From Candidatus Omnitrophota bacterium (GTDB taxonomy: Bacteria; Omnitrophota; Gorgyraeia; Gygaellales; Profunditerraquicolaceae), in the NCBI GenBank assembly GCA_020062065.1, contig JAGUWZ010000090.1:1-15115 (forward strand): 15,115 nt of DNA, written 5' to 3'. Shown here piece after piece: positions 416-15,115 of this stretch (position 1 is the stretch's first letter; every line of letters starts with the position of its first letter). The position numbers and the translations under genes are program-made. The notes beneath the pieces are model-generated. The model did not search any database, was not told the origin of the DNA, and saw nothing but the letters and a program-made list of their open reading frames with translations.

Positions 416-433
416 TAGGACAATGGCGTTCTA
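416..433 (+). promoter_or_regulatory. Hexaloop hairpin, candidate ANTAR binding site overlapping the terminator
   Basis: TAGGAC (416-421) pairs with GTTCTA (428-433) in six pairs, one of them G-U, around the loop AATGGC (422-427). The loop has A at position 1 and G at position 4, the hallmark described for ANTAR-domain RNA targets. Its loop and 3' arm use the bases that form the 5' arm of the terminator (425-431), so the two folds exclude each other. Known ANTAR targets have two such hairpins. The expected upstream partner is not clear here: the best candidates are 268-286 (seven-base loop ATAGTTA) and 385-395 (two or three pairs around AAGTT). The assignment rests on structure and on the ANTAR gene downstream. 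Confidence 0.6.
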
Positions 434-472
434 TGCCAAATGTTTTGGCAGAAGAGCGCCTTTTTATTTTTT
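425..472 (+). terminator. Intrinsic terminator in the leader
   Basis: GGCGTTC (425-431) pairs with GAGCGCC (454-460) with one G-U pair. Above an internal loop, TGCCAAA (434-440) pairs with TTTGGCA (444-450) around a TGT loop. The hairpin is followed directly by TTTTTATTTTTT (461-472). This is a textbook rho-independent terminator placed before the genes it would switch off, which is why it is read as an attenuator and not as the end of an upstream gene: no complete gene precedes it after the promoter. Confidence 0.8.
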
Positions 473-543
473 ACGCTTCGATTGATTTGAGATAAATCTA
501 ATTATTATTGAAGAGTTTCTGAAATCGAAGAGGCCGACAAGAA

Positions 544-785
544 ATGACCAAAGATGAAATTTGGTTAGAGAAAACACTCGATGAGATAGAAGCTCAAATG
601 CGCCAGAATAACTTAGAAGGTCTAAAGCAATTGTAAAGAGTTTGGTTAGAGATGCTCTGAGGGCTTTAGAAGATACTCAGGTAGAGTGGGAACTCGACCA
701 TAATTCGAAAGAAATAAGAGAAGAGTTTGCTGTTGTGCGTCATTGTTTAGATTATCTAAAAAGGTTCTGTGAAGGAATGGCGTAA
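544..785 (+). pseudogene. Small helical protein of unknown function, broken by a frameshift
   Basis: ATG 544, preceded by AAGAGG, opens a 30-codon frame (MTKDEIWLEKTLDEIEAQM...) that stops at TAA 634-636. A second frame, open from 612, carries on as VKSLVRDALRALEDTQ... to TAA 783-785, so one missing base near 620-633 would join both parts into a protein of about 80 residues. Both parts are charged and predicted mostly helical, and no family was recognised. The second part ends 31 bp before the ANTAR regulator gene, so it would be the first gene behind the attenuator. The shift may be a real mutation or an assembly error. No classical -1 slippery heptamer is seen at the junction, so programmed frameshifting is unlikely. 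Confidence 0.45.
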
Positions 786-816
786 GTAAGGCTCTAAAGA
801 AAAAAGTAGGTGTTCA

Positions 817-1524
817 ATGGAGAGTATGCCCTTTGAAGAGCAGATAAAGGCTCTATCAAAAATAAGTAAAGCTATAACTTCAGATTTGTATTTAGAAGAT
901 ATCCTTCGCCTTATTGTTGTGGTGACCGCAGAGGCGATGGGTTCAAACATCTGCTCAATAATGCTCATTGATGAGAAGAAAAATGAGATTGTAATTAGGG
1001 CTACGCAAAGCGTAAGCGAAGAATATATCAAAAAACCGCCTTTAAAGATAGGAGAAGGGATTGCGGGAAAAGTAGCAAAAGAGAATAAACCCATAGCTAT
1101 TAAGGAGGTGATTAAAGAAAAAGAATATAAATATAAAGATATTGCAAAGAAAGAAGGGCTCTGCTCTCTTTTATGCGTTCCTTTGGCAGTGAAGGGTAAA
1201 GTTATCGGAGTTATTAATTGTTACACATCTACTCCTCATAATTTTACTGAGACAGAGATTGATATTTTGACCTCCATTGCTAATCAGGCAGCAGTGGCAA
1301 TTGAAAATACAGAGTTGATGGTAAAGTCTAAGGTTATCCAAGAGGAATTAGAGGCGCGCAAAAAAATTGAGCGGGCTAAGGGAATTTTGATGAAAGAAGA
1401 AGGCTTAACAGAGGAAGAGGCTTATAAAAAACTTCAAAGGTATAGCATGGATCACCGTAAGACCATGCATGAAGTGGCTGAAGCGATTATTTTAGCCAGT
1501 GATATAAAAAAGAAAATAAGATAA
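817..1524 (+). CDS. GAF-ANTAR transcription antitermination regulator
   Basis: This 235-residue protein has an N-terminal GAF sensor domain (about residues 25-165), a helical linker, and a C-terminal ANTAR domain (about 174-230) with the family pattern ERAKGILMKEEGLTEEEAY...RYSMDHRKTMHEVAEAI. ANTAR domains bind paired hairpins in nascent RNA and prevent intrinsic terminators from forming. Unlike many ANTAR proteins it has no receiver domain, so its input should come through the GAF domain, by a ligand or redox state. Cys46, Cys116, Cys120 and Cys135 lie in that domain. The start ATG 817 has AGTAGG at 805-810. The gene lies downstream of a leader with a matching RNA element and 34 bp before glnA, so nitrogen control of glnA and of itself is the obvious role. 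The ligand is unknown. Confidence 0.9.
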   Translation: MESMPFEEQIKALSKISKAITSDLYLEDILRLIVVVTAEAMGSNICSIMLIDEKKNEIVIRATQSVSEEYIKKPPLKIGEGIAGKVAKENKPIAIKEVIKEKEYKYKDIAKKEGLCSLLCVPLAVKGKVIGVINCYTSTPHNFTETEIDILTSIANQAAVAIENTELMVKSKVIQEELEARKKIERAKGILMKEEGLTEEEAYKKLQRYSMDHRKTMHEVAEAIILASDIKKKIR

Positions 1525-1558
1525 CATAGGATGTTACAAAGAAAAGGAGGAAGAACAC

Positions 1559-2890
1559 ATGGGTAATAAGAGCAGAGAAGAAATCTTAAAATTAGCAAAA
1601 GAAATGGATGTTAAATTTATCCGGCTATGGTTTACAGATATCTTGGGTCAAGTTAAAAGTTTCGCTATTACAGACAGTGAATTAGAAGGCGCATTAGAAA
1701 ATGGTATGGGATTTGATGGCTCATCAATTACTGGGTATCAATCAATTGAAGAAAGTGACATGATTGCTCTTCCGGATCCAAATACATTTCATATTCTTCC
1801 TTGGCGGCCTAAAGAAAAGGCAGTTGCCAGAATGATATGCGATATCTTAACACCAGATAGAAAGCCTTATGAAGGTGACCCAAGATATGTCTTAAAAAGA
1901 GCCTTAGAGCGGATGAAGAAAATGGGTTTTGATTATTATTATCTTGGTCCAGAGTTAGAATATTTTTATTTTAAAAATGACCAATTAACCGAAATTTTAG
2001 ATAAAGGTGGTTACTTTGATTTGACTACCCTTGATGGAGCTTCGGACTTAAGGCGCGACACAATTTTTGCGTTAGAAGCCATGGGAATTCAAATTGAATA
2101 TAGCCACCATGAGGTAGGTCCTAGCCAACATGAGATTGATATGAGATACCAAGATGCATTGAATATGGCAGACCATGTTATTACCTATCGGGTAGTGGTT
2201 AAAGAGATAGCTCAGAAACACGGTGTATATGCAACTTTTATGCCTAAGCCTCTATTTGGCGTGAATGGTAGCGGAATGCATACACATCAGTCACTATTTA
2301 AGGGCGATAAAAATGCCTTTTTCTCCAAGGACGATAAATATTACTTAAGCGATGTGGCAAAAAAATTTATTGCTGGCCAGCTAAAACACGCAAAGGAGAT
2401 GAGCGCAATATATGCCCAGTGGGTCAACTCCTACAAGCGACTTGTTCCTGGATATGAAGCACCAGTTTATATTGCCTGGTCACGCAGAAATAGATCGGCT
2501 TTAATTAGAGTGCCTGAGTATCATCCAGGAAAGGAGAAAGCAACCAGAGCAGAATTTAGGTCTCCAGATCCTGCTTGCAATCCATATTTGACATTTGCGG
2601 TAATGCTTCATGCAGGTCTTGAAGGTATTGAGAAAGGATACCAGTTACCTGAACCCATAGAAAAAAATCTATATCATTTATCTCCTGAAGAAAGGAAAGA
2701 GATGGGAATTGAATCTCTATCTGATAGCTTAGGAGAAGCAATTCTTATTGCTGAACAGAGCGGGATTGTTAAAAAGGCATTGGGGGAACATGTTTTTACC
2801 AGATTCATAGAACTAAAGAAAAAAGAATGGGAGGATTATCGAATACAGTTAACCAAGTATGAGTTGGATAACCTGCTTTCCATACTTTGA
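1559..2890 (+). CDS. glnA: Glutamine synthetase, type I (GSI-alpha-like)
   Basis: Catalyses ATP-dependent amidation of glutamate by ammonium to glutamine in the cytoplasm; the family forms dodecamers. The 443 residues are full length for the short GSI-alpha form found in Bacillus and Thermotoga. Visible motifs: GFDGSS at 51-56, GPELEYF (metal ligands Glu132, Glu134), HHEVGPSQHEID, the ATP signature NGSGMHTH (236-243), the flap PGYEAP with Glu300, and EFRSPDPACNPY (331-343). The 25-residue insertion of the adenylylated GSI-beta form is not apparent, although a Tyr (372, in EKNLYHLSPEE) sits where the adenylylated Tyr would be. Residue 62 is Ser where Bacillus subtilis has the feedback-inhibition residue Arg62. 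A strong ribosome site AAAGGAGG (1543-1550) fixes the start. It probably shares a transcript with the ANTAR regulator 34 bp upstream. Confidence 0.97.
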   Translation: MGNKSREEILKLAKEMDVKFIRLWFTDILGQVKSFAITDSELEGALENGMGFDGSSITGYQSIEESDMIALPDPNTFHILPWRPKEKAVARMICDILTPDRKPYEGDPRYVLKRALERMKKMGFDYYYLGPELEYFYFKNDQLTEILDKGGYFDLTTLDGASDLRRDTIFALEAMGIQIEYSHHEVGPSQHEIDMRYQDALNMADHVITYRVVVKEIAQKHGVYATFMPKPLFGVNGSGMHTHQSLFKGDKNAFFSKDDKYYLSDVAKKFIAGQLKHAKEMSAIYAQWVNSYKRLVPGYEAPVYIAWSRRNRSALIRVPEYHPGKEKATRAEFRSPDPACNPYLTFAVMLHAGLEGIEKGYQLPEPIEKNLYHLSPEERKEMGIESLSDSLGEAILIAEQSGIVKKALGEHVFTRFIELKKKEWEDYRIQLTKYELDNLLSIL

Positions 2891-2936
2891 TTTGGTTAGC
2901 CCTCGATAAGCTTATCTCAAGATTGAGATTAAAGGA

Positions 2937-2959
2937 CCAGGAACACTGGGGGATTTTTT
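2937..2959 (+). terminator. Weak candidate terminator after glnA
   Basis: CCAG/CTGG (2937-2940/2946-2949) forms a short hairpin followed, after four bases, by TTTTTT (2954-2959). A competing pairing CCAGGAA/TTCCTGG (2937-2943/2973-2979) has a longer stem but a large loop. The stem is short and the T-run is offset, so this is only a candidate. The palindromic repeat 45 bp further on could serve as a better transcript end. Confidence 0.3.
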
Positions 2960-3004
2960 AATAATCAGACTTTTCCTGGAAGATCAAAATAGTAGAATTA
3001 AGCT

Positions 3005-3162
3005 GATTTAATAACTAGTAAAATGATAATTTCAACCCAATTTTATTAACGCAGATTCTCGCAAATCAAACGCGGATTTTCGCAGATAAATCTTTAAATC
3101 TGCGTATATCTGCGTGCAATCTGCGTTCATCTGCGTTTAAAAAGATAGTTGTTAAATTGGCT
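3005..3162 (+). repeat. Palindromic dispersed repeat, copy 1 of 3
   Basis: A ~159-bp element present three times in the window, all in the same orientation (others at 11062-11221 and 13485-13643). It begins GATTTAATAACTAGTAAAAT and ends TTAAATTGGCT. The core is a large inverted repeat: four CGCAGAT-type units (3050-3087) at ~11-bp spacing face four ATCTGCG units (3098-3137), able to form a long hairpin. Outer ends carry a short inverted match (CAATTTTA... against ...TAAATTGG). There is no coding potential. It is probably a non-autonomous mobile or REP-like element. It lies between glnA and gltB. Confidence 0.85.
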
Positions 3163-3292
3163 GAGAATTAGAAAATAGAGAGATTTTGCCTTCCTTGGGC
3201 GATGCGAGGTAATCATCTCGCTGGGCAGCCTGGTGAATCTGTGAAACTCAACATTATTTTTTAAATTTTTGTGCCCATAATTTAAGCAGAAG

Positions 3293-3379
3293 ATGATTAC
3301 AGTTTTGGTATTAGAAGATGAAAAAAAGGTTTACAACCTACTTTCTGAAGCCTTGCGTAAGGAAGTATTCCTTTGTTGA
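3293..3379 (+). pseudogene. N-terminal fragment of a response-regulator receiver domain
   Basis: A 28-codon frame from ATG 3293 reads MITVLVLEDEKKVYNLLSEA and then LRKEVFLC before TGA 3377-3379. The hydrophobic beta strand followed by EDE and an amphipathic helix matches the first strand, acidic pocket and first helix of CheY-type receiver domains. Everything past the first ~25 residues is missing: the next 40 bp lead into gltB. It is likely the stub of a regulator lost by deletion. It is short, so a chance resemblance cannot be excluded, but the fit to the start of a receiver domain is good. Confidence 0.45.
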
Positions 3380-3424
3380 TGAGTCAGAGATAGGAATTAA
3401 TGTAGAGAAATGGAAGACAGAGCA

Positions 3425-6400
3425 ATGAAATATTATCATTTACCCAAAAAACAAGGATTATATGACCCCGCTTTTGAACATGATGCTTGTGGAGTAGGTT
3501 TTGTTTGTAATATCAAAGGCAAAAAGTCAAATGAGATTGTGCATTTGGGACTAAACGCCCTTAAACGTCTTTTACACCGTGGCGCAACTGGAGCTGACCC
3601 TAAGACCGGAGACGGAGCAGGCATCTTAATCCAAACTCCCCATGAATTTTTTAAAAAAGTTGCTTCTGACTTAAAGTTTGACCTGCCCAATTTAGGCGAT
3701 TATGGCACAGGCCTGGTATTTTTACCTCCTAACAAAAAAGAGCGTCAATTTTGTAAAAATGTTTTCTCTAAAATAATTAAGGAACAAGGGCAAACTATTT
3801 TGGGCTGGCGTAGGGTTCCAGTTGATGATACTGACATCGGCAAAACCGCACGCGAGACAGAACCAGTTATTGAACAAATCTTCATTGCCCGAAACTTAAG
3901 CCTTAAAATGCAAATAGATTTTGAAAGAAGACTTTATATTATTAGAAAAAAGACAGAAAATATTATCCGGCAATCAAAGTTAAAACAGAAATCCTATTTC
4001 TATATTACCAATATTTCCAGTCGCACCTTTTCCTATAAAGGACTGCTTATGTCAACACAGTTGGAGAAGTTCTTTTTGGACCTAAAAGACCCGGAGGTAA
4101 AAAGCGCTCTTTGTTTAATCCATGCCCGCTACTCAACCAATACTTTTCCCACCTGGGATTTGGCTCAACCATTTAGATTTTTAGCGCACAACGGAGAGAT
4201 AAACACATTAAGGGGTAATATCAACTGGATGCGGGCAAGGGAAGGGTGGTTAGAAAGTAAGTTATTTGGTAAAGAGCTAAAAAATATTTTTCCTATAGTC
4301 GTTCCAGGGGGAAGCGATTCGGCAACCATTGATAACGTCTTTGAATTTCTTGTTTTGGGAGGTCGGTCTTTACCACATGCGATGATGATGCTTATTCCTT
4401 CTGCCTGGGAACAGAATCCACTTTTGGATAAGAAAATCAGAGATTTTTACCGATACCATGCCTGTCTAATGGAACCCTGGGATGGACCAGCAGCCATTGC
4501 TTTTACTGATGGAACCAGTGTTGGTGCGGTTTTGGATAGAAATGGTCTTCGTCCCGCAAGATACATTGTTACTAAGAAAGATTTTGTGGTTATGGCTTCA
4601 GAAGTAGGAGTTTTAGATATTAAGCCCAATGATATCCTTATTTCAGGAAGGCTTGAGCCAGGAAAGATATTTTTTATTGATACAGAAGAAGGTCGTATTG
4701 TAGATGATAATGAGGTAAAAGAAATAATCTCAAGACGCAAAACCTATGGTGTTTGGCTTAAAGAAAATATGCTGGAACTTGAGCATCTGCATAGTGTTAG
4801 GTTTAAGAAAAAAAATGAAGAAGATACCTTGACTTTGCTAAAAGCATTTGGCTATACGCGCGAGGATTTAAAATTTATTATTAAACCTATGGTAGAAAAT
4901 GCTCAAGAACCTATGGGCTCAATGGGAGATGATACTCCCCATGCGGTTTTATCAAAAGAGCCCCGGCTTCTTTATGACTACTTTAAACAGTTATTTGCCC
5001 AGGTTACTAATCCCGCAATTGATCCTATACGTGAAGAGTTGGTGATGAGCCTGGAAAGTTATATAGGTCCAGAAAATAATCTTTTGGAGGAGACGCCTAT
5101 TCATTGTCACAAATTAAGGGTGAAGTATCCTATACTGACTAACGAGGAACTGGCTAAGATTCTTAATCTCAAAGAAAAGGGTTTTAAGACCAAAACAATT
5201 TCAACTCTTTTTTCCGCCAGAGATGGATTCCCCTCCGACAGAAAAGTCTCTAAAGAATTAGAATTTATGAAGACGCTGGATAAAATATGTAAAGAGGCAA
5301 CTCTGGCGATAAAAGAAGGTTATACCTTTATAATCTTAAGCGACCGGGGGGTAAATAAAGATTATGCCGCATTACCTTGTCTATTAGCCGCAGGCGCAGT
5401 ACATCATTACTTGGTAAGAAATGCCTTGCGCACGCAAATCGGGATAATTTTAGAAACCGCAGAACCCAGAGCGGTGCATCATTTTGCACTTTTATTCGGC
5501 TATGGAGCAGATTGTATCAATCCCTATCTTGCCTATGAGGCGGTTAAATGCATAGTTAAAGAAGAAAGATTGGGCCTGGATATCAAAACTGCTTTGAAAC
5601 ATTACATAAAAGCTTTAGAAAAAGGTATCTTAAAAATTCTTTCTAAGATGGGTATTTCAACCCTACAGAGTTATAGAGGCGCCCAAATTTACGAGGCCTT
5701 GGGATTGGATGAGGATGTAATTGAGCAATGTTTTAGCGGAACTGTATCCAGGATTGGTGGTGCGGGATTTAATGTAATTGCCAAGGAGAGTATTCTAAGG
5801 CACAGAGAGGCTTATCCCGAAAGGCAAATACAAGTTCCTTATTTAGCCACGGGTGGCGTATATCAGTGGAAGAGAGACGGTGAATTTCACTTATGGAATC
5901 CTGAGAGTATTGCGGCTCTTCAGGATGCGGTATGGAACCAAGATTATAAAAAATATAAGGAATTTACTCAACTTATTAATAACCAGTCTGACAATCCGAC
6001 GACATTGCGAGGTTTACTTAAGTTTAAGAGCTCAAAATCCATTCCTATTGAAGATGTTGAGTCTGTGGAGAAGATTGTAAAACGTTTTGCCACTGGCGCG
6101 ATGAGTTTCGGTTCTATAAGTAAAGAAGCGCATGAAACGATTGCCATTGCCATGAATAGAATGGGCGCGCGTTCTAATAGTGGTGAAGGCGGAGAGGATC
6201 CGGCAAGATTTTTTCCTCGGCCTAACGGAGACATAAGTCGCAGCGCAGTAAAGCAAGTTGCTTCAGGTAGATTTGGTGTTACCACCAATTATCTGGTTAA
6301 TGCTGATGAATTGCAGATAAAGATTGCTCAGGGCGCAAAGCCAGGAGAAGGCGGGCAGCTGCCTGGTCATAAAGTCAGTGTTACCATTGCCAGAACTCGT

Positions 6401-7984
6401 TACACTACTCCTGGCGTAACCTTAATTTCTCCACCTCCACATCATGATATCTATTCCATTGAAGATCTTGCTCAATTAATCTTTGATTTAAAGAATACAA
6501 ATCCTCATGCGCGTATCAACGTTAAACTCGTCTCAGAGATTGGCGTGGGAACTATTGCTGTCGGCGTGGCTAAAGGCCATGCAGATGCGATTTTAATTTC
6601 CGGTGGAGACGGAGGAACAGGCGCTTCACCAATGAGCTCTATAAAACACGCTGGTCTTCCCTGGGAATTGGGTCTTTCAGAGACTCATCAGACCCTAGTG
6701 TTAAACGACTTAAGAGGTAGGGTAAGGCTTCAGACTGATGGACAGATGCGCACAGGCAAAGATGTGGCAATAGCCGCTCTTTTAGGAGCAGAAGAATACG
6801 GTTTTTGTACTTCTGTTTTAATTGTCTTAGGATGCGTAATGTTAAGACACTGCCAGCTTAACAACTGTTCGGTAGGGATAGCTACTCAGGAAGAAATTTT
6901 ACGACAGAGATTTAAAGGTAGGCCTGAATATGTGGTTAATTATTTTCATTTTGTCGCTTGTGAATTGCGTGAGATTATGAGCTACCTTGGTATAAAAACG
7001 CTTGATGAGATGATTGGAAGAACCGAACTTTTAGAAGTCAACCAAGAAATTCTGCCCTGGAAGGCAAAGGGAATTGATTTTTCAAAAATCCTGTATAAAC
7101 CAAAGGTGCCTAAAAGGGTGGATACCTACTGCAAAATCTTGCAGGACCATGGAATCGAAGAAGTTTTGGATTTAAAACTTATTCAATTATGCCAAGATGC
7201 CTTAGAAAAAAAGCAAGCCGTTAAAATAGAACTGGATATTAAGAATACAGATAGAACAACTGGCGCAATGCTTAGCGGTCAGATTTGTAAGCTATTTGGA
7301 GAAGAAGGACTGCCTGATGATACAATTCGCTGTAAATTTAAAGGTGCAGCGGGTCAGGGCTTTGGGGCATGGCTTGCCAAAGGAATTACCTTTGAACTTG
7401 AAGGTATGGCTAATGATTATGTTGGAAAAGGTATATCTGGTGGAAAGATTATAATTTATCCTGATAAAGAGGCAGACTATAGACCCCAAGAGAATATTAT
7501 CATTGGTAATACCACTTTTTATGGAGCGATATGCGGAGAGGCCTATATCCGTGGAGTGGCAGGAGAACGTTTTTGTATTAGAAATTCGGGTCTCTTGGCT
7601 GTAGTTGAAGGACTTGGAGATCACGGATGCGAATATATGACTGGCGGCAGAGTAGTTGTTTTAGGTAAAACTGGTAGGAACTTTGCCGCAGGTATGTCTG
7701 GTGGGATCGCTTACATTTACGACGTAGAGAAGAGTTTTAGAAAAAGATGTAATTTGGAGATGGTGGAATTAGAGGGGGTCTCGGTAGATGATGTAAGGAA
7801 CATTTATAATCTATTGCGGAATCACTATCAATACACTCAAAGTCAAATTGCCGGAAAAATTCTGGATAATTTTGCGCGGGAGATTAAGAAATTTATCAAG
7901 GTTATGCCTATAGAGTATAAACGAATATTAGAAGGCAAGGAATTAGAGGTGAAGTTGGAACCGGCTGAGGTTTCTGATGGGTGA
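3425..7984 (+). CDS. gltB: Glutamate synthase (NADPH), large subunit
   Basis: The large GOGAT subunit transfers the amide of glutamine to 2-oxoglutarate, giving two glutamates. Domains in the 1519 residues: class II glutamine amidotransferase (from Cys22, HDACGVGF, to about 420), the inactive central domain (about 470-780), the FMN-binding synthase domain (about 865-1225), and the C-terminal GXGXG beta-helix (from about 1270). The 3Fe-4S cysteines CVMLRHCQLNNC fall at 1137, 1143 and 1148. The residues before Cys22 are a short propeptide removed to expose the catalytic cysteine. The frame also has ATG at 3410, but 3425 has the better ribosome site (GGAAGA, 7-bp spacing) and a propeptide length like that of the Bacillus protein as recalled. 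It overlaps gltD by 8 bp. No nearby ANTAR-type leader was found. Confidence 0.96.
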   Translation: MKYYHLPKKQGLYDPAFEHDACGVGFVCNIKGKKSNEIVHLGLNALKRLLHRGATGADPKTGDGAGILIQTPHEFFKKVASDLKFDLPNLGDYGTGLVFLPPNKKERQFCKNVFSKIIKEQGQTILGWRRVPVDDTDIGKTARETEPVIEQIFIARNLSLKMQIDFERRLYIIRKKTENIIRQSKLKQKSYFYITNISSRTFSYKGLLMSTQLEKFFLDLKDPEVKSALCLIHARYSTNTFPTWDLAQPFRFLAHNGEINTLRGNINWMRAREGWLESKLFGKELKNIFPIVVPGGSDSATIDNVFEFLVLGGRSLPHAMMMLIPSAWEQNPLLDKKIRDFYRYHACLMEPWDGPAAIAFTDGTSVGAVLDRNGLRPARYIVTKKDFVVMASEVGVLDIKPNDILISGRLEPGKIFFIDTEEGRIVDDNEVKEIISRRKTYGVWLKENMLELEHLHSVRFKKKNEEDTLTLLKAFGYTREDLKFIIKPMVENAQEPMGSMGDDTPHAVLSKEPRLLYDYFKQLFAQVTNPAIDPIREELVMSLESYIGPENNLLEETPIHCHKLRVKYPILTNEELAKILNLKEKGFKTKTISTLFSARDGFPSDRKVSKELEFMKTLDKICKEATLAIKEGYTFIILSDRGVNKDYAALPCLLAAGAVHHYLVRNALRTQIGIILETAEPRAVHHFALLFGYGADCINPYLAYEAVKCIVKEERLGLDIKTALKHYIKALEKGILKILSKMGISTLQSYRGAQIYEALGLDEDVIEQCFSGTVSRIGGAGFNVIAKESILRHREAYPERQIQVPYLATGGVYQWKRDGEFHLWNPESIAALQDAVWNQDYKKYKEFTQLINNQSDNPTTLRGLLKFKSSKSIPIEDVESVEKIVKRFATGAMSFGSISKEAHETIAIAMNRMGARSNSGEGGEDPARFFPRPNGDISRSAVKQVASGRFGVTTNYLVNADELQIKIAQGAKPGEGGQLPGHKVSVTIARTRYTTPGVTLISPPPHHDIYSIEDLAQLIFDLKNTNPHARINVKLVSEIGVGTIAVGVAKGHADAILISGGDGGTGASPMSSIKHAGLPWELGLSETHQTLVLNDLRGRVRLQTDGQMRTGKDVAIAALLGAEEYGFCTSVLIVLGCVMLRHCQLNNCSVGIATQEEILRQRFKGRPEYVVNYFHFVACELREIMSYLGIKTLDEMIGRTELLEVNQEILPWKAKGIDFSKILYKPKVPKRVDTYCKILQDHGIEEVLDLKLIQLCQDALEKKQAVKIELDIKNTDRTTGAMLSGQICKLFGEEGLPDDTIRCKFKGAAGQGFGAWLAKGITFELEGMANDYVGKGISGGKIIIYPDKEADYRPQENIIIGNTTFYGAICGEAYIRGVAGERFCIRNSGLLAVVEGLGDHGCEYMTGGRVVVLGKTGRNFAAGMSGGIAYIYDVEKSFRKRCNLEMVELEGVSVDDVRNIYNLLRNHYQYTQSQIAGKILDNFAREIKKFIKVMPIEYKRILEGKELEVKLEPAEVSDG

Positions 7985-9419
7985 TATTAGAGGTTTTTTA
8001 AAAGTTAAAAGGCAAGCCAGAGAATACAGGCCAGTTTATGAGCGTATCAAGGATTATCGAGAGATTCCAATCTTACGCACTGGCGAACATTCTCAAGAAC
8101 AAGCGTCGCGTTGTATGGATTGTGGCACACCTTTTTGTCATTGGGGCTGCCCCATAGGCAATTTTATACCGGAATGGAATGATTTTGTGTTTAGTGGACA
8201 ATGGGAGAAAGCGCTCCAGCTTTTGGAAGCAACGAATAATCTTGCTGAAATTACCGGCAGAATCTGCCCGGCTCTCTGTGAATACGCCTGTGTTTTAGGT
8301 ATTAACGATGAGCCGGTTACCATCTGCGAAAATGAATTAGCCATTATTGAATACGCCTTTAAAAATGGTTACATTACCGCCCATTTACCTAAGAAGCGCA
8401 TGGGAAAGAAAGTTGCGGTTATTGGCTCTGGGCCTGCGGGTTTAGCCTGCGCAGCTCAATTAAATTGTGCAGGCCATAGAGTCGTGGTATTTGAAAGAGA
8501 TGACAAAATCGGCGGAATCTTACGTTACGGTATCCCTGATTTTAAGTTAGAAAAATGGGTTTTGGAAAGGCGGCTTAAGATTTTGGAGAAAGAAGGAATT
8601 GAATTTAAAACTAAGATTAATGTAGGCATAGACTATAAGGTTTCTAAATTGAAGAAAGAATTTGATGCGATTTGTTTAGCCGGGGGTTGCCGTGTTCCTC
8701 GAGACTTAAAGATTGAAGGAAGGGACTTGAAAGGAATTTATTTTGCTATGGATTATCTAATTCAGTCAAATAGAAGAGTTGCTGGCCAAAATTTTCCTGT
8801 TGGTCAGTTAATCGATGCCAAAGGTAAAAAGGTTGTAATTATCGGTGGGGGAGATACTGGTGCTGATTGTGTGGGAGTAGCACATAGACAAGGGGCAAGT
8901 TGCGTCATACAGATAGAACTCCTGCCTCAGCCGCCCGAACATCGCCCTTCCGATTGTCCATGGCCTAAATATCCAATGCTTTTAAAAACTTCTACTAGCC
9001 ATGAAGAGGGAGCAGAGCGTAAGTGGTCAGTATTAACTAAGAAGTTTATTGGAGAGAAGGGCGAAGTGAAAAGACTTTTCTGTATCAAGGTAGAGTTTGA
9101 AAAGGATATTAAAGGTCGTCTTGCAATGAAAGAAATTCCCGGCTCAGAATTTGAGATATATGCGGATTTAGTAATTCTTGCCTTGGGATACTTACATCCT
9201 GAAAAAAAGGGCTTAATTGAAGAACTTGATTTGGGATTAGATTCTTGTGGAAATGTGAAAGCCGATTCCAACTTTATGACTTCTCAAAAAGCTGTATTTG
9301 CTTGCGGAGATATGCGTCGTGGTCAATCCTTAGCTGTCTGGGCAATCTCAGAAGGAAGAAAGGCGGCGCATTATATAGATAAGTATCTTATAGGAAGTAG
9401 CTATTTACCATGTCTTTAG
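7977..9419 (+). CDS. gltD: Glutamate synthase (NADPH), small subunit
   Basis: The beta subunit of GOGAT (480 residues) takes electrons from NAD(P)H via FAD and passes them through iron-sulfur clusters to the large subunit. Visible features: N-terminal cluster cysteines RCMDCGTPFCHWGCP (Cys46, 49, 54, 58) and ICPALCEYAC (97, 101, 105), the FAD dinucleotide motif VIGSGPAGLACAAQL (148-162), the NADPH-binding motif IIGGGDTGADCVGVAHRQGA near 285-304, and the closing FAD-contact region FACGDMRRGQSLAVWAISEG. Length is normal. The start ATG 7977 lies inside the end of gltB, with TGAGG at 7966-7970 as ribosome site. The overlap suggests translational coupling to give the two subunits in equal amounts. 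Confidence 0.96.
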   Translation: MGDIRGFLKVKRQAREYRPVYERIKDYREIPILRTGEHSQEQASRCMDCGTPFCHWGCPIGNFIPEWNDFVFSGQWEKALQLLEATNNLAEITGRICPALCEYACVLGINDEPVTICENELAIIEYAFKNGYITAHLPKKRMGKKVAVIGSGPAGLACAAQLNCAGHRVVVFERDDKIGGILRYGIPDFKLEKWVLERRLKILEKEGIEFKTKINVGIDYKVSKLKKEFDAICLAGGCRVPRDLKIEGRDLKGIYFAMDYLIQSNRRVAGQNFPVGQLIDAKGKKVVIIGGGDTGADCVGVAHRQGASCVIQIELLPQPPEHRPSDCPWPKYPMLLKTSTSHEEGAERKWSVLTKKFIGEKGEVKRLFCIKVEFEKDIKGRLAMKEIPGSEFEIYADLVILALGYLHPEKKGLIEELDLGLDSCGNVKADSNFMTSQKAVFACGDMRRGQSLAVWAISEGRKAAHYIDKYLIGSSYLPCL

Positions 9420-9704
9420 TCTTACAAAGGTCAATAGGGGATAGGGTTAAAAATCCGCTTGCCAATCCCTCTTGATGGGATGAGCGCGTTTAGCAGAAAG
9501 AGCGAGGGTAAGAAAGCCAGCTCTCATTAAAAACTTCTGGCAAGCGCTACATCAGGCACTGCTTGCAAGCAAAGTAAAAACTTTTCAGCACAAGCATTGA
9601 GGGAGAGACAGTCCTTAAAATAACTTGCCTTACTCAATCTGTTGTGATATTTTATTATCAACCAGGACATCATAAAAAGTTAGAACCTTATAGAATAGTC
9701 CCTG
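9420..9704 (+). other. Non-coding stretch after gltD
   Basis: No convincing reading frame, RNA gene or strong terminator is seen. There are minor inverted repeats: ATCCC/GGGAT near 9464-9481, CAAGC/GCTTG (9541-9545/9561-9565), and the 10-bp palindrome GCTTGCAAGC (9561-9570). Base composition is more GC-rich and less gene-like than the flanks, so it may be a decayed remnant. No homology to a known family could be made out. Confidence 0.4.
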
Positions 9705-9744
9705 CCATAGTTGACACTCAGGCGAACCCTGACGAGATAATTAG
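9705..9744 (+). repeat. 40-bp direct repeat, left side of the toxin-antitoxin cassette
   Basis: This 40-bp sequence, with core CTCAGGCGAACCCTG, returns at 10517-10556 with 33 of 40 positions matching and no gaps. The two copies start 812 bp apart and bracket the toxin and antitoxin genes. This copy also contains TTGACA (9711-9716) with GATAAT 19 bp further (9736-9741), a long-spaced but possible promoter for the cassette. The right copy has TTGACG and no -10 box, so any promoter function would be specific to this side. Confidence 0.65.
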
Positions 9745-9759
9745 TTGAGGTGGTTCGCT

Positions 9760-10359
9760 ATGTGTAAAGTCGGTGTGTTGATGAAAAATAAGGCAGTTTA
9801 TATTATTGCGGGACCGAATGGATCAGGCAAAACAACTTTTGCTAAGTTATTTTTGCCTGACTATGTGAATTGTCCGAATTTTGTAAATACCGATCTTATC
9901 GCTCAAGGGTTAGCTCCCTTTAAGCCTCGCGCCGCAGCTATTAAAGCCGGCAAGCTCGTATTGCAAGAAATCCACGAATACACCAGACGGGGCGTTGATT
10001 TCGCTTTTGAGACGACATTGTCTGGCAAATCTTATGTAAGATTGCTTACCAAATTAAAATTGAAAGGTTATGCTTGTCATCTTTTCTTTCTCTGGATTCC
10101 CAGCCCGGAGTTAGCAATCGCCCGTATTAAAGATAGAGTTGCTGAAGGTGGACATCATGTGCCTGCCGAAGATGTGCGTAGAAGATTTGCTCGGGGTATA
10201 AATAATTTCTTCAACCTGTATGAATCTTTGTTTGATTCTTGGATGTTATTTGATAATTCAAAAACAAAGCCCATATTGATTGCCAAAAGAAAAAATGGCC
10301 ATAGAGAAGTAATTAACGGCGGTTTATTTGTGGCGGTTCAAAAAAATGTGAGGCGATAA
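9760..10359 (+). CDS. Zeta-toxin family P-loop kinase-like protein
   Basis: This 199-residue protein has a Walker A motif AGPNGSGKTTF (residues 17-27), NTDLIAQGLAPF, and the FAFETTLSG segment, in the order typical of the zeta-toxin/COG4185 'predicted ABC-type ATPase' family. Zeta toxins phosphorylate UDP-N-acetylglucosamine and block wall synthesis; whether this member does so is inferred only from family. A TTG at 9745 could start the frame, but ATG 9760 has GAGGTGG at 9747-9753 with ideal spacing and is preferred. ATG 9781 would also keep the whole domain. The gene is followed with no gap by the small probable antitoxin gene at 10360, and the pair lies between 40-bp direct repeats. Confidence 0.85.
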   Translation: MCKVGVLMKNKAVYIIAGPNGSGKTTFAKLFLPDYVNCPNFVNTDLIAQGLAPFKPRAAAIKAGKLVLQEIHEYTRRGVDFAFETTLSGKSYVRLLTKLKLKGYACHLFFLWIPSPELAIARIKDRVAEGGHHVPAEDVRRRFARGINNFFNLYESLFDSWMLFDNSKTKPILIAKRKNGHREVINGGLFVAVQKNVRR

Positions 10360-10512
10360 ATGAAAAAAAGAATGTCTTTGCAGGATAAAGCCGAAGCAGC
10401 CTTAAAAAAAGCTGTGCGCGGCGTTGTTGAGCGACATAAAAAATCTGGCCGACCTCTGGCAATTTGGGAAAATGGCAAAACCGTTCGTATTTCTCCGAAC
10501 ACAGTAAAGTAG
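10360..10512 (+). CDS. Small probable antitoxin partner of the zeta-like toxin
   Basis: This 50-residue basic protein begins right after the toxin stop codon (TAA 10357-10359, ATG 10360-10362), with GAGG at 10350-10353 as ribosome site. Its sequence has a helical N-terminal half (MSLQDKAEAALKKAVRGVVE) followed by GRPLAIWENGKTVRISPN. Small proteins with a 'GRPL.VW..GKVVRI' tail next to COG4185 kinases are familiar from bacterial genomes as putative antitoxins; this is from memory, not a search. It is too short for a classical epsilon antitoxin (about 90 residues). The tight coupling and compact cassette argue that it is a real gene. Antitoxin function is inferred from context. Confidence 0.7.
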   Translation: MKKRMSLQDKAEAALKKAVRGVVERHKKSGRPLAIWENGKTVRISPNTVK

Positions 10513-10516
10513 GGAA

Positions 10517-10556
10517 CCATTGTTGACGCTCAGGCGAACCCTGGCAGGGGAATTAG
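10517..10556 (+). repeat. 40-bp direct repeat, right side of the toxin-antitoxin cassette
   Basis: The right-hand copy of the repeat at 9705-9744 begins 4 bp after the antitoxin stop codon. Seven positions differ. The near-perfect fit of the repeats to the ends of the two-gene unit suggests a mobile or duplicated cassette. It was compared with integron attC features (GTTRRRY and RYYYAAC boxes at the two ends of a folded site) and does not match clearly. Confidence 0.65.
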
Positions 10557-11061
10557 GGGACGCTTCGGGGTTTTTGTAGTTCGGAATCGTTTACAAACCA
10601 TAGATTACAACTGCGGCCGGACAGTTAAGTGTCAGCATAGTGCCTTGTCCATTTAATATTATTTGACACCACAGTCTTCAGATTCCCCCCTATACTCATC
10701 GTCGGAAAATCTCCGAAAAGTATCAAAAATACCTGTTTTTAGGAAGGCATCAAGAAGAAACCTGCGTCTTAACTGAACCAATGCTTAGAGATATTTTAGC
10801 TGGGTTAGAAGCCAACAGCCAACTACAGCAGTTAAGGCAGATATTTTTAGGAAAGGTTTTTAAAAATTTTGATATATGAATAAAGAAACCGAGAAAATTT
10901 TCTAAACTAAAAAATCAAAAAATGTCCAGAGAGGGTGGAATTGATTTGAAAAGAGAGTTTTTGGTGGTAGAATATGTTTAATCTTACTTTATTATTATAT
11001 CAGATATACAGGAGCCATAAGGCGAGTGCCTATCTTGTAAATTTTATAAATTAAGAAAGCT
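10557..11061 (+). other. Non-coding stretch with one open-frame remnant
   Basis: No complete gene is seen. One frame is open from 10667 to TGA 10877-10879, about 70 codons, with no ATG until 10781. It reads ...KYQKYLFLGRHQEETCVLTE and ends ...RQIFLGKVFKNFDI. Its composition is protein-like, but no family was recognised, so it is most likely the tail of a lost gene. Small hairpins occur, such as TCGGA/TCCGA (10702-10706/10712-10716). From 10880 to 11061 only very short frames exist, up to repeat copy 2. Confidence 0.4.
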
Positions 11062-11221
11062 GATTTAATAACTAGTAAAATGATAATTTCAAGCCAATTT
11101 TATTAACGCAGATATTCGCAAATCAAACGCGAGATTCTCGCAGATAAAACTTTTTCATCTGCGTATATCTGCGTGCAATCTGCGTGTATCTGCGTTTAAA
11201 AAGGTAGTTCTTAAATTGGCT
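11062..11221 (+). repeat. Palindromic dispersed repeat, copy 2 of 3
   Basis: Same element as at 3005-3162, with a few substitutions, for example AAGCCAATTTTATTAACGCAG on the left and AAAAAGGTAGTTCTTAAATT on the right. Here the left AGCCAATTT and right AAATTGGCT ends form an exact short terminal inverted repeat. It shares an internal spacer (ATAAAACTTTTTCATCTGCG) with copy 3, so those two are closest. It ends only 14 bp before the rmuC ribosome site, so the hairpin would lie in the 5' leader of that gene unless transcription starts within the element. Confidence 0.85.
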
Positions 11222-11250
11222 AAATTAAGAGGAAAAAAGGAGGAACCATA

Positions 11251-12747
11251 ATTACTGTCATCGCAATCTTAACTATAGGTATCGTTATAAATTTAATCTT
11301 ATTTTTTATAATATTAGGTAGAGGCGAGAATCAAGCTAAAAAGATAGAAAATATAGATAAAGATATCTTGAGGCTTGAATCTAATGTAAGAGATGAAATT
11401 GCGAAAAATAGAGAAGAAAGCAATAATAACGCCAGGCAGCTCAGAGAAGAAATTGCAAATTCTTCGAAGACCTTCGGAGATTCTATCTCTAAACATATAA
11501 CAGAGATAGCCAATCTTCAAAAGAATCAACTTGATATTTTTTCCAATCAACTCTCAAAATTGACAGAACTAAATGAGCAAAAACTTGAACAGATACGGGA
11601 AGCTATTGTAAATAACTTAAAGGCTTCTAATGATTCAGTCATTTCGAAAATCGTAGAAGTAGTTAATCTCCAGAAGAATCAATTCGATACTTTTTCGAAA
11701 CAGCTCATAACCTTGACGCAAATGAACGAGCAGAAGTTAGAAGCAATGCGCAGTACTGTAGAGCAAAGATTGAAATCAATCCAGGATGACAATGCGCTTA
11801 AATTAGAACAGATGCGGCTAACTGTAGATGAGAAATTACATACTACTCTGGAGAAGCGATTGGGAGATTCATTTAAGTTAGTAAGTGACAGACTTGAGCT
11901 TGTGCGTCAGGGGTTAGGCGAAATGCAGGCATTAGCAAATGGGGTGGGTGATCTTAAAAAGGTATTAACTAATGTAAAAACTAGAGGTACGTGGGGAGAG
12001 ATTCAACTAGGTAATTTGTTGGAGCAAATATTAACGCCAGAACAGTATTCAACGAATGTTGTTACTAAAATAGGCAGCAGAGAGAATGTTGAATTTGCTT
12101 TAAGATTACCCGGAAAGGATGATAAAGTAGTCTGGTTGCCAATAGATGCAAAGTTCCCAAGGGAAAATTATGAGCGGTTATTAGAGGCCCAAGAACAAGC
12201 CAATCCTATTTTGGTGGAAAAATCCGGCAAAGATTTGGACGATACAGTGAAATTGATGGCCAAGAATGTGCGAGATAAATATCTCGACCCACCAAATACA
12301 ACAGATTTTGGTATACTATTTTTGGCTACCGAAGGTTTATACGCGGAAATAATACGCCGCCCTGGACTTTGCGACTATATTCAGAGAGAATATAGGGTAG
12401 TTGTGGCTGGTCCAACTACGATTGCAGCATTGCTGAATAGTTTACAGATGGGGTTCAGGAGTCTTGCAATTGAAAAAAGAGCAGGCGAAGTGTGGAATTT
12501 GCTCGGTGTCGTAAAAAATGAATTTGGCAAGTTCGGCGACCTCTTAGATAAAACACATAAACAACTGCAAACTGTAAGCACCACTATTGAAGGCGCAGCA
12601 AAGAAATCTAGAACAATTGAAAAGAGATTAAAAGATGTGCAAGTTTTACCGGCTGCAGAGTCTAAGGAACTTTTGGCTCAATTAGAAGCAGCAGATACTA
12701 GCGAAGCTGATGAACAAGATTGGCTCAATGAGACCAAGGAATCGTAA
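11251..12747 (+). CDS. rmuC: RmuC family protein, with a probable rare ATT/ATA start
   Basis: RmuC proteins are membrane-anchored with a nuclease-like domain and limit recombination at inverted repeats; the exact reaction is not well settled. Codons from 11251 give 498 residues: an N-terminal membrane helix (about residues 2-24, TVIAILTIGIVINLILFFII), a long coiled coil (about 30-230), and the RmuC domain with TRGTWGEIQLGNLLE, LPIDAKFPRENY, FLATEGLYAEIIRRPGL and GPTTIAALLNSLQMGFRSLAIEKRA. The first common start codon in frame is TTG 11368, which would lose the membrane helix and has no ribosome site. Upstream, AAAGGAGG (11236-11243) is followed by ATA 11248 and ATT 11251 in frame, so initiation at ATT (7-bp spacing) is favoured. 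The coiled coil contains a 51-residue tandem duplication. Confidence 0.88.
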   Translation: MTVIAILTIGIVINLILFFIILGRGENQAKKIENIDKDILRLESNVRDEIAKNREESNNNARQLREEIANSSKTFGDSISKHITEIANLQKNQLDIFSNQLSKLTELNEQKLEQIREAIVNNLKASNDSVISKIVEVVNLQKNQFDTFSKQLITLTQMNEQKLEAMRSTVEQRLKSIQDDNALKLEQMRLTVDEKLHTTLEKRLGDSFKLVSDRLELVRQGLGEMQALANGVGDLKKVLTNVKTRGTWGEIQLGNLLEQILTPEQYSTNVVTKIGSRENVEFALRLPGKDDKVVWLPIDAKFPRENYERLLEAQEQANPILVEKSGKDLDDTVKLMAKNVRDKYLDPPNTTDFGILFLATEGLYAEIIRRPGLCDYIQREYRVVVAGPTTIAALLNSLQMGFRSLAIEKRAGEVWNLLGVVKNEFGKFGDLLDKTHKQLQTVSTTIEGAAKKSRTIEKRLKDVQVLPAAESKELLAQLEAADTSEADEQDWLNETKES

Positions 12748-12793
12748 CTTAATTGGATAAATTTAGTTATGGACATCTCTGACTACCTGAAGG

Positions 12794-12827
12794 GTAGATA
12801 CCCACGGCCATGGCCGTGGGTATCTAC
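12794..12827 (+). repeat. Perfect 34-bp palindrome after rmuC
   Basis: GTAGATACCCACGGCCA at 12794-12810 is followed at once by its exact reverse complement (12811-12827), with no spacer. As RNA it would form a very stable hairpin, but the bases after it (TAACAAAAATC) are not a T-run, so it is not a standard intrinsic terminator. It may still end or stabilise the rmuC transcript. Similar 'CCCACGGC...GCCGTGGG' hairpins are known to me from the ends of IS200/IS605-type elements and REP sequences, so a solo remnant of such an element is the main alternative. It starts 46 bp after the rmuC stop. Confidence 0.8.
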
Positions 12828-12986
12828 TAACAAAAATCTTTATAGCGATTACTTCAGTAGAAACTAAATTACTCATGGTTCAAACTCCCTTCCTATTTCA
12901 TTCATTCCGCATCGCAGATTCATCCAAGGCGATTTTTGCAAAATACTCAAGACCTTCGTTGGGAGCAAGGTTGTGCTTTGCAAGAT

Positions 12987-13445
12987 ATGATTAAATTAAA
13001 ACAGCTTATTCCGGAAGATTATTGCTTGAGTTGTAAGGGGTGTTGTAGATTTAGTCAAGAGAATTCTGCCTGGTCCCCGAAGCTTTTAGAAGAAGAGAAA
13101 AATAGATTAGAGAAAATCCGTATATTAGCCGACCCCCAAGAAGGGAATTTTATATGCGCCTTTTTAAATAAAAGAAACAATAAATGCAAAATTTATCACT
13201 CCAGGCCATTTGAATGTCAGCTTTATCCGTTTGTTTTCAACGGGGTTAATAATAAAGTATTTTTGGCAATGGATTTAAACTGCGCTTTTATAAAAGAAAA
13301 CCTAAAGACCCCGGGATTCAAAGACTACACCCAAAGCTTAACAAACCTTATTAAAAACCCGGGGTTCCTTAATCTTTTAAAAGACAACCCTCATCTCATC
13401 CAGAATTATGAAGGAGTGCTTGCCCTTGCAGTGCTTGATATTTAA
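12987..13445 (+). CDS. YkgJ-family cysteine-cluster protein (putative Zn/Fe-binding)
   Basis: This 152-residue protein has the CxxCxxCC cluster YCLSCKGCCRF (Cys13, 16, 19, 20), then Cys57, Cys67, the RPFECQLYPF segment (Cys77) and Cys99. These are the arrangement and spacing of the YkgJ/'Fe-S oxidoreductase-like, zinc- or iron-chelating' family. Biochemical role is unknown. ATG 12987 puts the cluster near the N-terminus as in relatives recalled, but has no clear ribosome site; TTG 12978 (GGGAGCAAGG upstream) and TTG 12936 are in-frame alternatives that add 3 or 17 residues. The gene stands alone between the palindrome and repeat copy 3. No nearby partner explains its function. Confidence 0.8.
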   Translation: MIKLKQLIPEDYCLSCKGCCRFSQENSAWSPKLLEEEKNRLEKIRILADPQEGNFICAFLNKRNNKCKIYHSRPFECQLYPFVFNGVNNKVFLAMDLNCAFIKENLKTPGFKDYTQSLTNLIKNPGFLNLLKDNPHLIQNYEGVLALAVLDI

Positions 13446-13484
13446 ACCCTCGCGCAGACAATAAGCAATAGAGAGAACTTATTA

Positions 13485-13643
13485 GATTTAATAACTAGTA
13501 AAATGATAATTTCAACCCAATTTTATTAACGCAGATTTTCGCAAATCCAACGCGGATTTTCGCAGATAAAACTTTTTCATCTGCGTAAATCTGCGTGCAA
13601 TCTGCGTTCATCTGCGTTTAAAAAGATAGTTGTTAAATTGGCT
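13485..13643 (+). repeat. Palindromic dispersed repeat, copy 3 of 3
   Basis: Nearly identical to copy 1 across its whole length, including the outer GATTTAATAACTAGTAAAAT and the right-hand AAAGATAGTTGTTAAATTGG. Like copy 2 it is followed by TAAATTAA. It begins 39 bp after the YkgJ-like gene and ends 23 bp before the DUF2156 gene. All three copies therefore occupy intergenic space in the same orientation as the genes. Confidence 0.85.
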
Positions 13644-13666
13644 AAATTAATGGGTAGATATGACTT

Positions 13667-14581
13667 GTGGTTTATAACGCAGTGAAACTTAACAGGTTAT
13701 CCCTTAAAGATAAACAGTTGTTCAAAGGGTTTCTAAACCTAACAACCCACGAATTGTCCGTCTATGCATTTGAGAATATTTATATCTGGAATAGGTTCTT
13801 TGATATATACTGGACGATAATCAAGAATCATCTTTGTTTGTTCTTCCAGGATAAAATAGGTTGTTTTTTATATTTGCCGCCACTGGGTAAAAACCTAAGA
13901 CCAGAAGTAGCCCAGGAGGTTTTTAGGATTATGGATAAATTTAATAAAAATCCTGGACTATCCCGGATAGAGAATGTTGAAGAGAAAGAGAGAGTATTTT
14001 ACCAGGATTCAGGATATGAGTGTCGGTATAAATCATTTGACTATCTCTGTTTGCGAAGCGCATTGGCAGGTTTAAAAGGAAACCGTTTTAAATCCAAGCG
14101 CAGCTGTATCAACTATTTTACCAAGAATTATAGTTTTGAGTACTGGGATTATTCTTGCGATGATAAAGATGGGTGCTTGCAACTTTATAAGGATTGGATG
14201 AAGAGCCGTAAATTACAAGATGTTGATCCTGTATATAAAGGAATGCTTGGAGATAATTTTTTGTGCCTAGAGGTATTATTGCGCGATTATAAGAATTTGG
14301 ATTTAATCGGCAGGGTCATTAAGATAGATAGCCTGATAAAAGGGTTTAGTTTTGGTTTCCAGTTGAATAAAGAGACTTTCTGCATCCTCTTTGAGATAGC
14401 AGATTTATCTTTTAAAGGTTTGAGCCAGTATATATTCCGCCGGTTTTGTGAAGACTTAAAAAAATATCGCTATATAAACATTATGGATGATTCTGGGCTA
14501 CAGAATCTAAAAAAGGTAAAACTCTCATATCATCCACTAAGATTAATCCCGGCTTACATTGTTAAAAGAAGCAGGGACTAA
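13667..14581 (+). CDS. DUF2156 (LPG-synthase C-terminal-like) protein
   Basis: The 304 residues resemble stand-alone DUF2156 proteins, related to the GNAT-like C-terminal domain of phosphatidylglycerol lysyltransferase. Clues are the opening LKDKQLFKGFLNLTTHELSVYAFENIYIW, CLFFQDKIGCFLYLPPLG, the DSGYECRYKSFDYLC stretch and the closing NIMDDSGLQNLKKVKLSYHP. There are no membrane helices, unlike full lysyltransferases. Substrate is unknown; aminoacyl transfer to a lipid or peptide is a family-level possibility only. GTG 13667 is the first start after an in-frame TGA (13661-13663). GTG 13682 (giving MKLNRLSLKDK) may be the true start. The gene ends 4 bp before the exonuclease gene, suggesting an operon. 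Confidence 0.75.
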   Translation: MVYNAVKLNRLSLKDKQLFKGFLNLTTHELSVYAFENIYIWNRFFDIYWTIIKNHLCLFFQDKIGCFLYLPPLGKNLRPEVAQEVFRIMDKFNKNPGLSRIENVEEKERVFYQDSGYECRYKSFDYLCLRSALAGLKGNRFKSKRSCINYFTKNYSFEYWDYSCDDKDGCLQLYKDWMKSRKLQDVDPVYKGMLGDNFLCLEVLLRDYKNLDLIGRVIKIDSLIKGFSFGFQLNKETFCILFEIADLSFKGLSQYIFRRFCEDLKKYRYINIMDDSGLQNLKKVKLSYHPLRLIPAYIVKRSRD

Positions 14582-14585
14582 AAAG

Positions 14586-15115
14586 ATGGCTAAACTGATA
14601 GAGGAAATAGAATTTACTATTTTCGATACCGAGACCACAGGGCTCAAGCCGCGCTCAGGCGATAGAATCGTGGAGATCGCAGCCATAAGATTTAAGGGCG
14701 AAGAAAAAATCGCTACATTTCAGACTTTAATTAATCCCCACCGCTTTCTTTCTCCTGCCGCCTTTGAAGTGAATAAAATTACTTCTGATATGCTCAAAGA
14801 TGCCCCTCTTATAGAAACAGTGATGCCCAGATTCCTGGATTTTATTCAGAGCAGTTGTCTGTGTTCCTACAATGCAGTTTTTGATTTAGGGTTCCTTAAT
14901 AGCGAATTAAAGATTATTGGTCGGGATTTTCCAAAGGATATAGTGGTTGTAGATATACTCTCTATGGCCAGACGGCTTATGCCTGAGTTGGGACGTCACG
15001 CACTTTCTTATGTCGCGGAAAGCCTGGGAATTAAAGAAGAACAAGAACATCGCGCCCTTGCTGATGTGGAACTAACTTTAAAAGTTTTTAATAGCTTTAA
15101 AGAGGATTTGAAGAA
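14586..15115 (+). CDS. DnaQ-like DEDDh 3'-5' exonuclease (partial, runs off the window end)
   Basis: The visible 176 residues contain all three exonuclease motifs of the DnaQ/epsilon family: ExoI FDTETTGL (Asp14, Glu16), ExoII YNAVFDLGFL (Asp100), and ExoIII EHRALADVELT (His155, Asp160). The DEDDh class degrades DNA or RNA from the 3' end and includes the polymerase III proofreading subunit. Nothing shows whether this is true epsilon, an accessory exonuclease, or the front of a longer protein such as a DinG- or UvrC-like fusion. The start ATG 14586 follows AGCAGGGA with suitable spacing and is 4 bp after the DUF2156 stop. No stop codon occurs before the window ends. Confidence 0.9.
   Translation, partial: MAKLIEEIEFTIFDTETTGLKPRSGDRIVEIAAIRFKGEEKIATFQTLINPHRFLSPAAFEVNKITSDMLKDAPLIETVMPRFLDFIQSSCLCSYNAVFDLGFLNSELKIIGRDFPKDIVVVDILSMARRLMPELGRHALSYVAESLGIKEEQEHRALADVELTLKVFNSFKEDLK

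Follow-up and report, generated by a model that had tools for sequence, protein, structure and literature searches.

The glnA operon of this Omnitrophota bacterium probably governs its own transcription by antitermination, with the one-component GAF-ANTAR protein encoded by its first intact gene acting on the leader ahead of that gene. On the comparative sequence evidence we put the probability of this reading at about 85%. The window, by which we mean the whole 15,115-nucleotide stretch analysed, is one contig of a 0.84 Mb genome that is 71% complete; most of its close protein relatives that bear a name belong to Candidatus Omnitrophota. The observations that point to an ANTAR attenuator are hairpins that compete, are conserved and covary, the genes found behind the same element elsewhere, a single ANTAR gene and its RNA-contact residues; binding, antitermination, the direction of the response and the signal are inferred.

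The operon lies on the forward strand in the order promoter, leader, frameshifted small ORF, GAF-ANTAR gene, glnA, gltB-like gene and gltD-like gene. The regulator (817-1524, 235 aa) matches the Pfam families GAF (E 2.3e-24) and ANTAR (PF03861, E 3.7e-22; 78.3 bits against a curated cut-off of 27.3) and no others; a receiver domain is not found in it, as the earlier note on this DNA had read from the sequence. Glutamine synthetase, glnA (1559-2890, assigned by Pfam), starts 34 bases past the regulator gene. The large subunit of glutamate synthase is assigned to the gltB-like gene at 3410-7984 from its own sequence and from relatives: its protein shows a 67% match to the gltB product of one relative (L140), and a relative's gltB carries the Pfam domains GATase_2 and Glu_syn_central. 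The small subunit, with Fer4_20 and Pyr_redox_2 domains, is encoded by the gltD-like gene (7977-9419). Glutamate-synthase-like genes also lie 3′ of the regulator in the five relatives tested.

Several smaller features surround these genes. The small ORF in the gap between leader and regulator (544-786) is open to codon 30 in one frame and then continues in another; an intact 79-aa relative of it comes after the leader in L009. At 3291-3380 the beginning of a receiver-like protein is broken off ahead of gltB. L140 has an intact relative of this protein, 127 aa long, between an ANTAR element and gltB, which suggests that the gltB of the window may have lost an element of its own. Clustered repeats of a ctgcg-type word occupy 3050-3140, between glnA and gltB, and a Zeta-toxin-like protein with an AAA_33 P-loop is encoded downstream of gltD (9745-10359).

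The ANTAR part of the regulator matches those of the Rv1626-like protein 1s8n, EutV, NasR and AmiR. Seven of the 11 RNA-contact residues of EutV are identical in it (R181, K182, K188, E199, Y203, M211 and R214), EutV K147 is replaced by R186, and Q207, D212 and T216 differ; the numbering is by alignment with an inferred offset, at which all 11 letters fit. Among the identical residues are the tyrosine that stacks on G4 of the RNA loop and the methionine plug, both listed as contacts in the parts of the EutV work drawn on here (PMC8934654).

The leader, at 226-472, comprises three modules, the first made of P1a, P2a and T1, the second (343-416) weak, and the third made of P2c and T3 with P1c; the second and third are partly degenerate in the window. 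It starts with a sigma-70-like promoter at 226-253 (TTGACA-16-TATACT, with TG ahead of the -10 box; a score of 11/12). Promoter-type sites are not commoner here than in shuffles (seven against a mean of 10.4), and by eye the leaders of relatives have a TTGACA-type box at a comparable distance. In the first module, the P1a hairpin found by the scan (268-286, AAGCAC[ATAGTTA]GTGCTT, fold z -2.85) presents a seven-base loop with A1 at 274 and G4 at 277. P2a (295-311) was recognised by eye in a shifted register that differs from the minimum-energy fold; its loop AAGGTG (300-305) carries A1 and G4, and base 308 is bulged. The same kind of bulged register, with loop [AG]AxG, occurs in 11 of the 105 matches to the covariance model described below. 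The strong terminator T1 (305-330) was found by the scan and falls inside a model match; it pairs 305-311 with 316-322 ahead of a T tract at 323-330.

Module 2 begins with P1b (343-357, TTTC[AAGGTTA]GAAG), found by the scan and with a counterpart in six relatives, although the energy fold favours a slightly different pairing. P2b (362-375, GGAT[AAAAAT]ATCT) has lost G4 here, where relatives have GGAT[AAxGAC]GTCC. The weak terminator T2 (367-416) comes from the fold, with stems 367-371/406-410 and 373-380/397-404 and a T-rich stretch at 407-416; its z is -1.1 and 26 of 200 shuffles are equally stable, whereas T2 is clear in relatives. At its tip sits P1c (383-397, loop AAAGTTT at 387-393, one stem mismatch), recognised through the second model match. 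Strict A1/G4 loops are thus those of P1a and P2c, with P2a in its shifted register and P2b without G4. P1 and P2 are separated by about 8 bases in the first module, by 4 in the second and by about 18 in the third; in the EutV system a linker longer by 20 bases abolished antitermination, according to the passages at hand (PMC8934654).

Module 3 contains the element on which the earlier note had rested its case. The six-pair hairpin P2c (416-433, TAGGAC[AATGGC]GTTCTA, A1 at 422 and G4 at 425) is exactly as it had described, both in the sequence and in the scan, and has a folding energy of -4.6 kcal/mol on its own (z -4.3). Scan, model and fold all give the terminator T3 (425-472), in which GGCGTTCT at 425-432 pairs with AGAGCGCC at 453-460 around an inner hairpin at 434-450, followed by a T-rich tract at 461-472; the stretch 416-472 folds into T3 at -22.1 kcal/mol (z -4.2). 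Hairpin and terminator both need bases 425-432, so the two compete, and the proposed sharing of the terminator's 5′ arm is borne out. Within 200-540 there is a single A1/G4 hexaloop hairpin of at least five pairs that overlaps the beginning of a terminator stem. Of 2000 shuffles of that region that preserved dinucleotides, 1 contained such an overlap, and none is present on either strand of 541-15115. That the first intact gene beyond is the GAF-ANTAR gene, followed by glnA, agrees with Pfam, the frameshifted small ORF coming in between. The picture of one hairpin and one terminator was incomplete: two more terminators (305-330 and 367-416) and the partner hairpins at 268-286, 343-357 and 383-397 belong to the same leader.

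Hairpins by themselves would be insufficient, and it is the leaders of relatives that make the case. There a pattern recurs in which a P1 hairpin with loop A-N-N-G-T-Y-N is followed by P2, for which GGAC[AANGGC]GTTC is typical; a GC-rich terminator begins with the loop and 3′ arm of this second hairpin. The loops of P2 are six bases long; those of P1 are seven bases long in the window and in most of the training leaders, and six in L046 and at many other targets. Among 18 leaders, seven have three terminators, six have two (the window is one of these) and five have one, scan matches upstream of the first P1 being excluded. The first modules of 17 relatives show double changes in four of the five P1 pairs and six of the eight terminator pairs, with 93.2% of cells paired, a level reached in 0 of 500 shuffles and approached by no slid register. 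G4 of the P1 loop is present in 17 of these 17 rows and A1 in 16. A single fixed P2 register across the first modules was rejected; it yields no double changes because two registers occur. For P2c, where compensatory change in the 416-433 stem had been suggested as a check, 92.5% of cells are paired over 16 hand-picked rows, two pairs are invariant and two of the five covary, one being G-C in 8 rows and A-U in 6. Retention of the loop identity, also raised as a check, proved strict for G4 (15 of 16 rows) and less so for A1 (A in 12, G in 4). Across 10 rows, support for P1c is weak to moderate.

A covariance model, R1, was built from the first modules (P1 plus terminator) of 17 relatives, drawn from the 19 closest that have at least 460 bases upstream of the regulator gene, and the window was excluded from it. 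In the window R1 matches 266-334 (47.3 bits, E 8.3e-10) and 379-472 (32.8 bits, E 2.7e-6), with a third match on the reverse strand at E 0.29. Beyond the first two, nothing in the 71%-complete genome matches at E <= 0.1. The next two up to E 10, at 2.3 and 2.7, were dropped, as neither place shows a leader of this kind in front of a nitrogen gene; neither other element targets nor amtB were found in this incomplete genome. Matches at E <= 0.1 occur in 50 of 58 related genomes, and at E <= 0.01 in 102 of 191 Omnitrophota genomes (best 2.4e-14), against 11 of 151 Chloroflexota genomes taken as a control (best 8.0e-4). Since the top Chloroflexota score, 33.4 bits, exceeds that of the second window match, the latter is not secure on score alone and is carried by its position, 45 bases past the first. 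No Rfam family reaches its gathering score over the window; five sub-threshold matches at E <= 5 include no ANTAR family, and Rfam may hold none.

These comparisons bear on whether the terminators might be plain attenuators or insulators, for example coupled to Rho/NusG or to translation, with the A1/G4 hairpins incidental. Terminators alone could attenuate, and terminator-like sites are indeed frequent in the region (six against a shuffle mean of 2.3). Against such a reading stands the loop. The 105 model matches take in weak and reverse-strand ones; in 70 of them P2 has at least three contiguous pairs, and G4 is present in 69 of these 70 (A1 in 55, G in 13 and T in 2). The 11 further matches in the shifted register have G4 in 11 of 11 and A1 in 6; 24 of the 105 fit neither register. 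P1 covaries, no leader peptide was noticed in 254-472, and the element keeps company with the protein, an ANTAR gene being present in 73 of 76 Omnitrophota genomes with the element (E <= 1e-3) and in 70 of 115 without it (Fisher p 5e-9 over 191 genomes, a value uncontrolled for kinship). We regard incidental hairpins as very improbable.

The genes behind the element are consistent with control of nitrogen assimilation. As the first or second gene after R1 matches in Omnitrophota we find glnA of types I and III, glnK (P-II), amtB, gltB, glutamate-synthase-like genes, gdhA and nifH; nadE, pyrG, purS-purQ, guaA-like, hcp-like and amino-acid permease genes; and genes for AsnC-type and LuxR-like regulators. 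A nitrogen or glutamine gene (hcp-like counted) or the ANTAR gene lies within 1.3 kb downstream of 28 of 42 non-training matches, a descriptive count whose Pfam-named reference genes were drawn from the matches themselves; five have other named classes only, and nine have no assigned gene. At four loci the elements precede purS-purQ, pyrG, nadE and GMP-synthase-like genes, whose enzymes use glutamine, and this suggests a glutamine-sensing regulon. Two protein families recur at such sites. Regulators of about 170 aa with a weak LuxR/GerE match follow ANTAR elements at five loci and twice adjoin nifH or glnK, and a conserved protein of 265-275 aa, for which Pfam gives no match, is encoded at three loci, either next to glnK or separating ANTAR elements from amtB.

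Whether the neighbouring gene supplies the regulator is a separate matter. The attenuator could be controlled in trans by another ANTAR protein or RNA-binding factor, and the GAF-ANTAR protein encoded next to it could have its targets elsewhere; the genome lacks 29% of its sequence, and several relatives have two ANTAR genes, one of them in glnA operons where no upstream element was seen. Against this, 817-1524 is the only ANTAR gene match in this 71%-complete genome, and 17 of the 19 closest relatives have the leader immediately before the regulator gene. Of the other two, the closest relative of all (L002) carries the element after the regulator gene and before glnA, and L005 has none; R1 found three more leaders of the regulator gene. 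We consider trans control improbable, and the readthrough control of its own operon proposed earlier draws support from this comparative evidence.

In the preferred reading, autoregulation by the GAF-ANTAR protein, RNA polymerase would by default halt at T1, T2 or T3. The GAF domain would sense a nitrogen signal, for which 2-oxoglutarate or the glutamine state are guesses, and a GAF-ANTAR dimer would bind the A1/G4 loop hairpins of the nascent RNA. Because the P2 hairpins use the 5′ arms of the terminators, the bound form should keep the terminators from folding, and polymerase would read on into the regulator gene and glnA, perhaps also gltBD, giving a positive autoregulatory loop. Several points stand against this reading: P2b without G4, the z of -1.1 for T2, the mismatch in P1c and its distance of about 18 bases from P2c; seven-base P1 loops where the published motif has six, and the three changed contact residues; the nine of 42 matches without an assigned gene, and the two among the 19 closest relatives that lack an upstream leader; and also the lack of double changes in a fixed P2 register, the Chloroflexota match that outscores the second one in the window, and the failure to find further targets or amtB in the 71%-complete genome.

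Some of the same defects would be expected if only T1, with P1a and P2a, were functional and the T2 and T3 parts were decaying remnants of a leader with three modules, in a shrinking genome. One terminator suffices in five relatives, and the frameshifted small ORF and the broken-off receiver-like gene also lie in the window. P2c and T3 are nonetheless intact and strong, 32.8 bits were given to the second match by a model blind to both, and a single hexaloop can bind EutV, by the account in PMC8934654 as far as consulted. We think such decay unlikely, if by no means far-fetched.

One more structure connects the modules. By species-matched complementarity, AAAGAAAGGG at 287-296 can pair with TCCTTTCTTT at 336-345, a flanking helix that encloses P2a and T1 and overlaps, and so excludes, P2a and P1b. 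Within-species pairs beat cross-species pairs (permutation p 0.0002 by helix score over 23 leaders, 0.013 by duplex energy). A universal flanking helix was rejected, since only seven of 18 multi-module leaders reach <=10 of 200 shuffles. As the helix overlaps P2a and P1b it may reset the first module, which we offer as a lead. It also enters a more speculative idea, possible but on balance doubtful, in which the tandem leader would be a digital switch made of serial terminators, each needing one GAF-ANTAR binding event, with the regulator's own gene behind them and a helix reset. Serial terminators would multiply the chance of stopping, active regulator would raise its own level to give a steep glutamine programme, and the helix, forming only once T1 is passed, would strip module 1 of protein for the next polymerase.

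If the main reading is right, an uncultured small-genome phylum governs nitrogen assimilation largely at transcription termination, under the control of a one-component regulatory protein. Pairing a GAF-ANTAR protein with a defined RNA target would let its signal be sought directly, and serial antiterminators with autoregulation would be an economical way, found in nature, to obtain a switch that works on RNA. What may be new here is the arrangement of the leader in tandem modules, the control of a GAF-ANTAR gene by its own product, and a regulon in Omnitrophota that centres on glutamine. That ANTAR proteins control nitrogen genes is itself established, as the earlier note had said (PMC3369931 and PMC6316151, in the parts available to us), and because such control already extends in print to glutamine and glutamate synthase genes, the novelty then suggested narrows to the lineage, the tandem modules and the self-regulation of the GAF-ANTAR gene. 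In the openly licensed PMC literature, searched for ANTAR with Omnitrophota, glnA, GAF, tandem terminators or autoregulation, we saw no report of this arrangement.

Among known systems, NitR of Clostridium saccharobutylicum, from the Firmicutes, is a receiver-ANTAR protein encoded beside glnA and in this differs from the GAF-ANTAR protein here. It resembles the present case in that antitermination and induction of GS/GOGAT genes when nitrogen is limiting are attributed to it, in what we have of that report (PMC6316151). The survey of ANTAR regulons (Ramesh 2012, PMC3369931), to the extent used here, lists P-II, ammonium transporters, nitrogenase and glutamate/glutamine synthases, with no PAS- or GAF-ANTAR example characterised at that date, and the portion at hand contains 'autoregul', 'omnitroph' and 'glnA' 0 times; further background is in the excerpts used of PMC3369936 and PMC10066038. 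Its dual-hairpin RNA (EutV/eut, NasR/nasF, AmiR/amiE) shares with our leader two A1/G4 hairpins, the second overlapping the terminator 5′ arm, and nitrogen-rich regulons. It differs in that the window and most relatives have a seven-base P1 loop and P2 in two registers, with up to three serial modules per leader and a GAF-ANTAR regulator. Desulfotomaculum acetoxidans, in the same passages, has no fewer than 13 elements spread over six transcription units for nitrogen, more than one per unit, their serial placement being unstated there. NasR of Klebsiella oxytoca is likewise a one-component protein with its sensor fused to ANTAR, but senses nitrate through a NIT domain and targets nasF (PMC7496416, in part), whereas the window protein has GAF. 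EutV/EutW of Enterococcus faecalis, in the sections drawn on (PMC8934654, PMC5821096), shares the ANTAR contact residues, terminator competition and several attenuated terminators, four per locus, but is a two-component system with a receiver, and its four terminators front four different genes instead of standing in series (PMC5821096).
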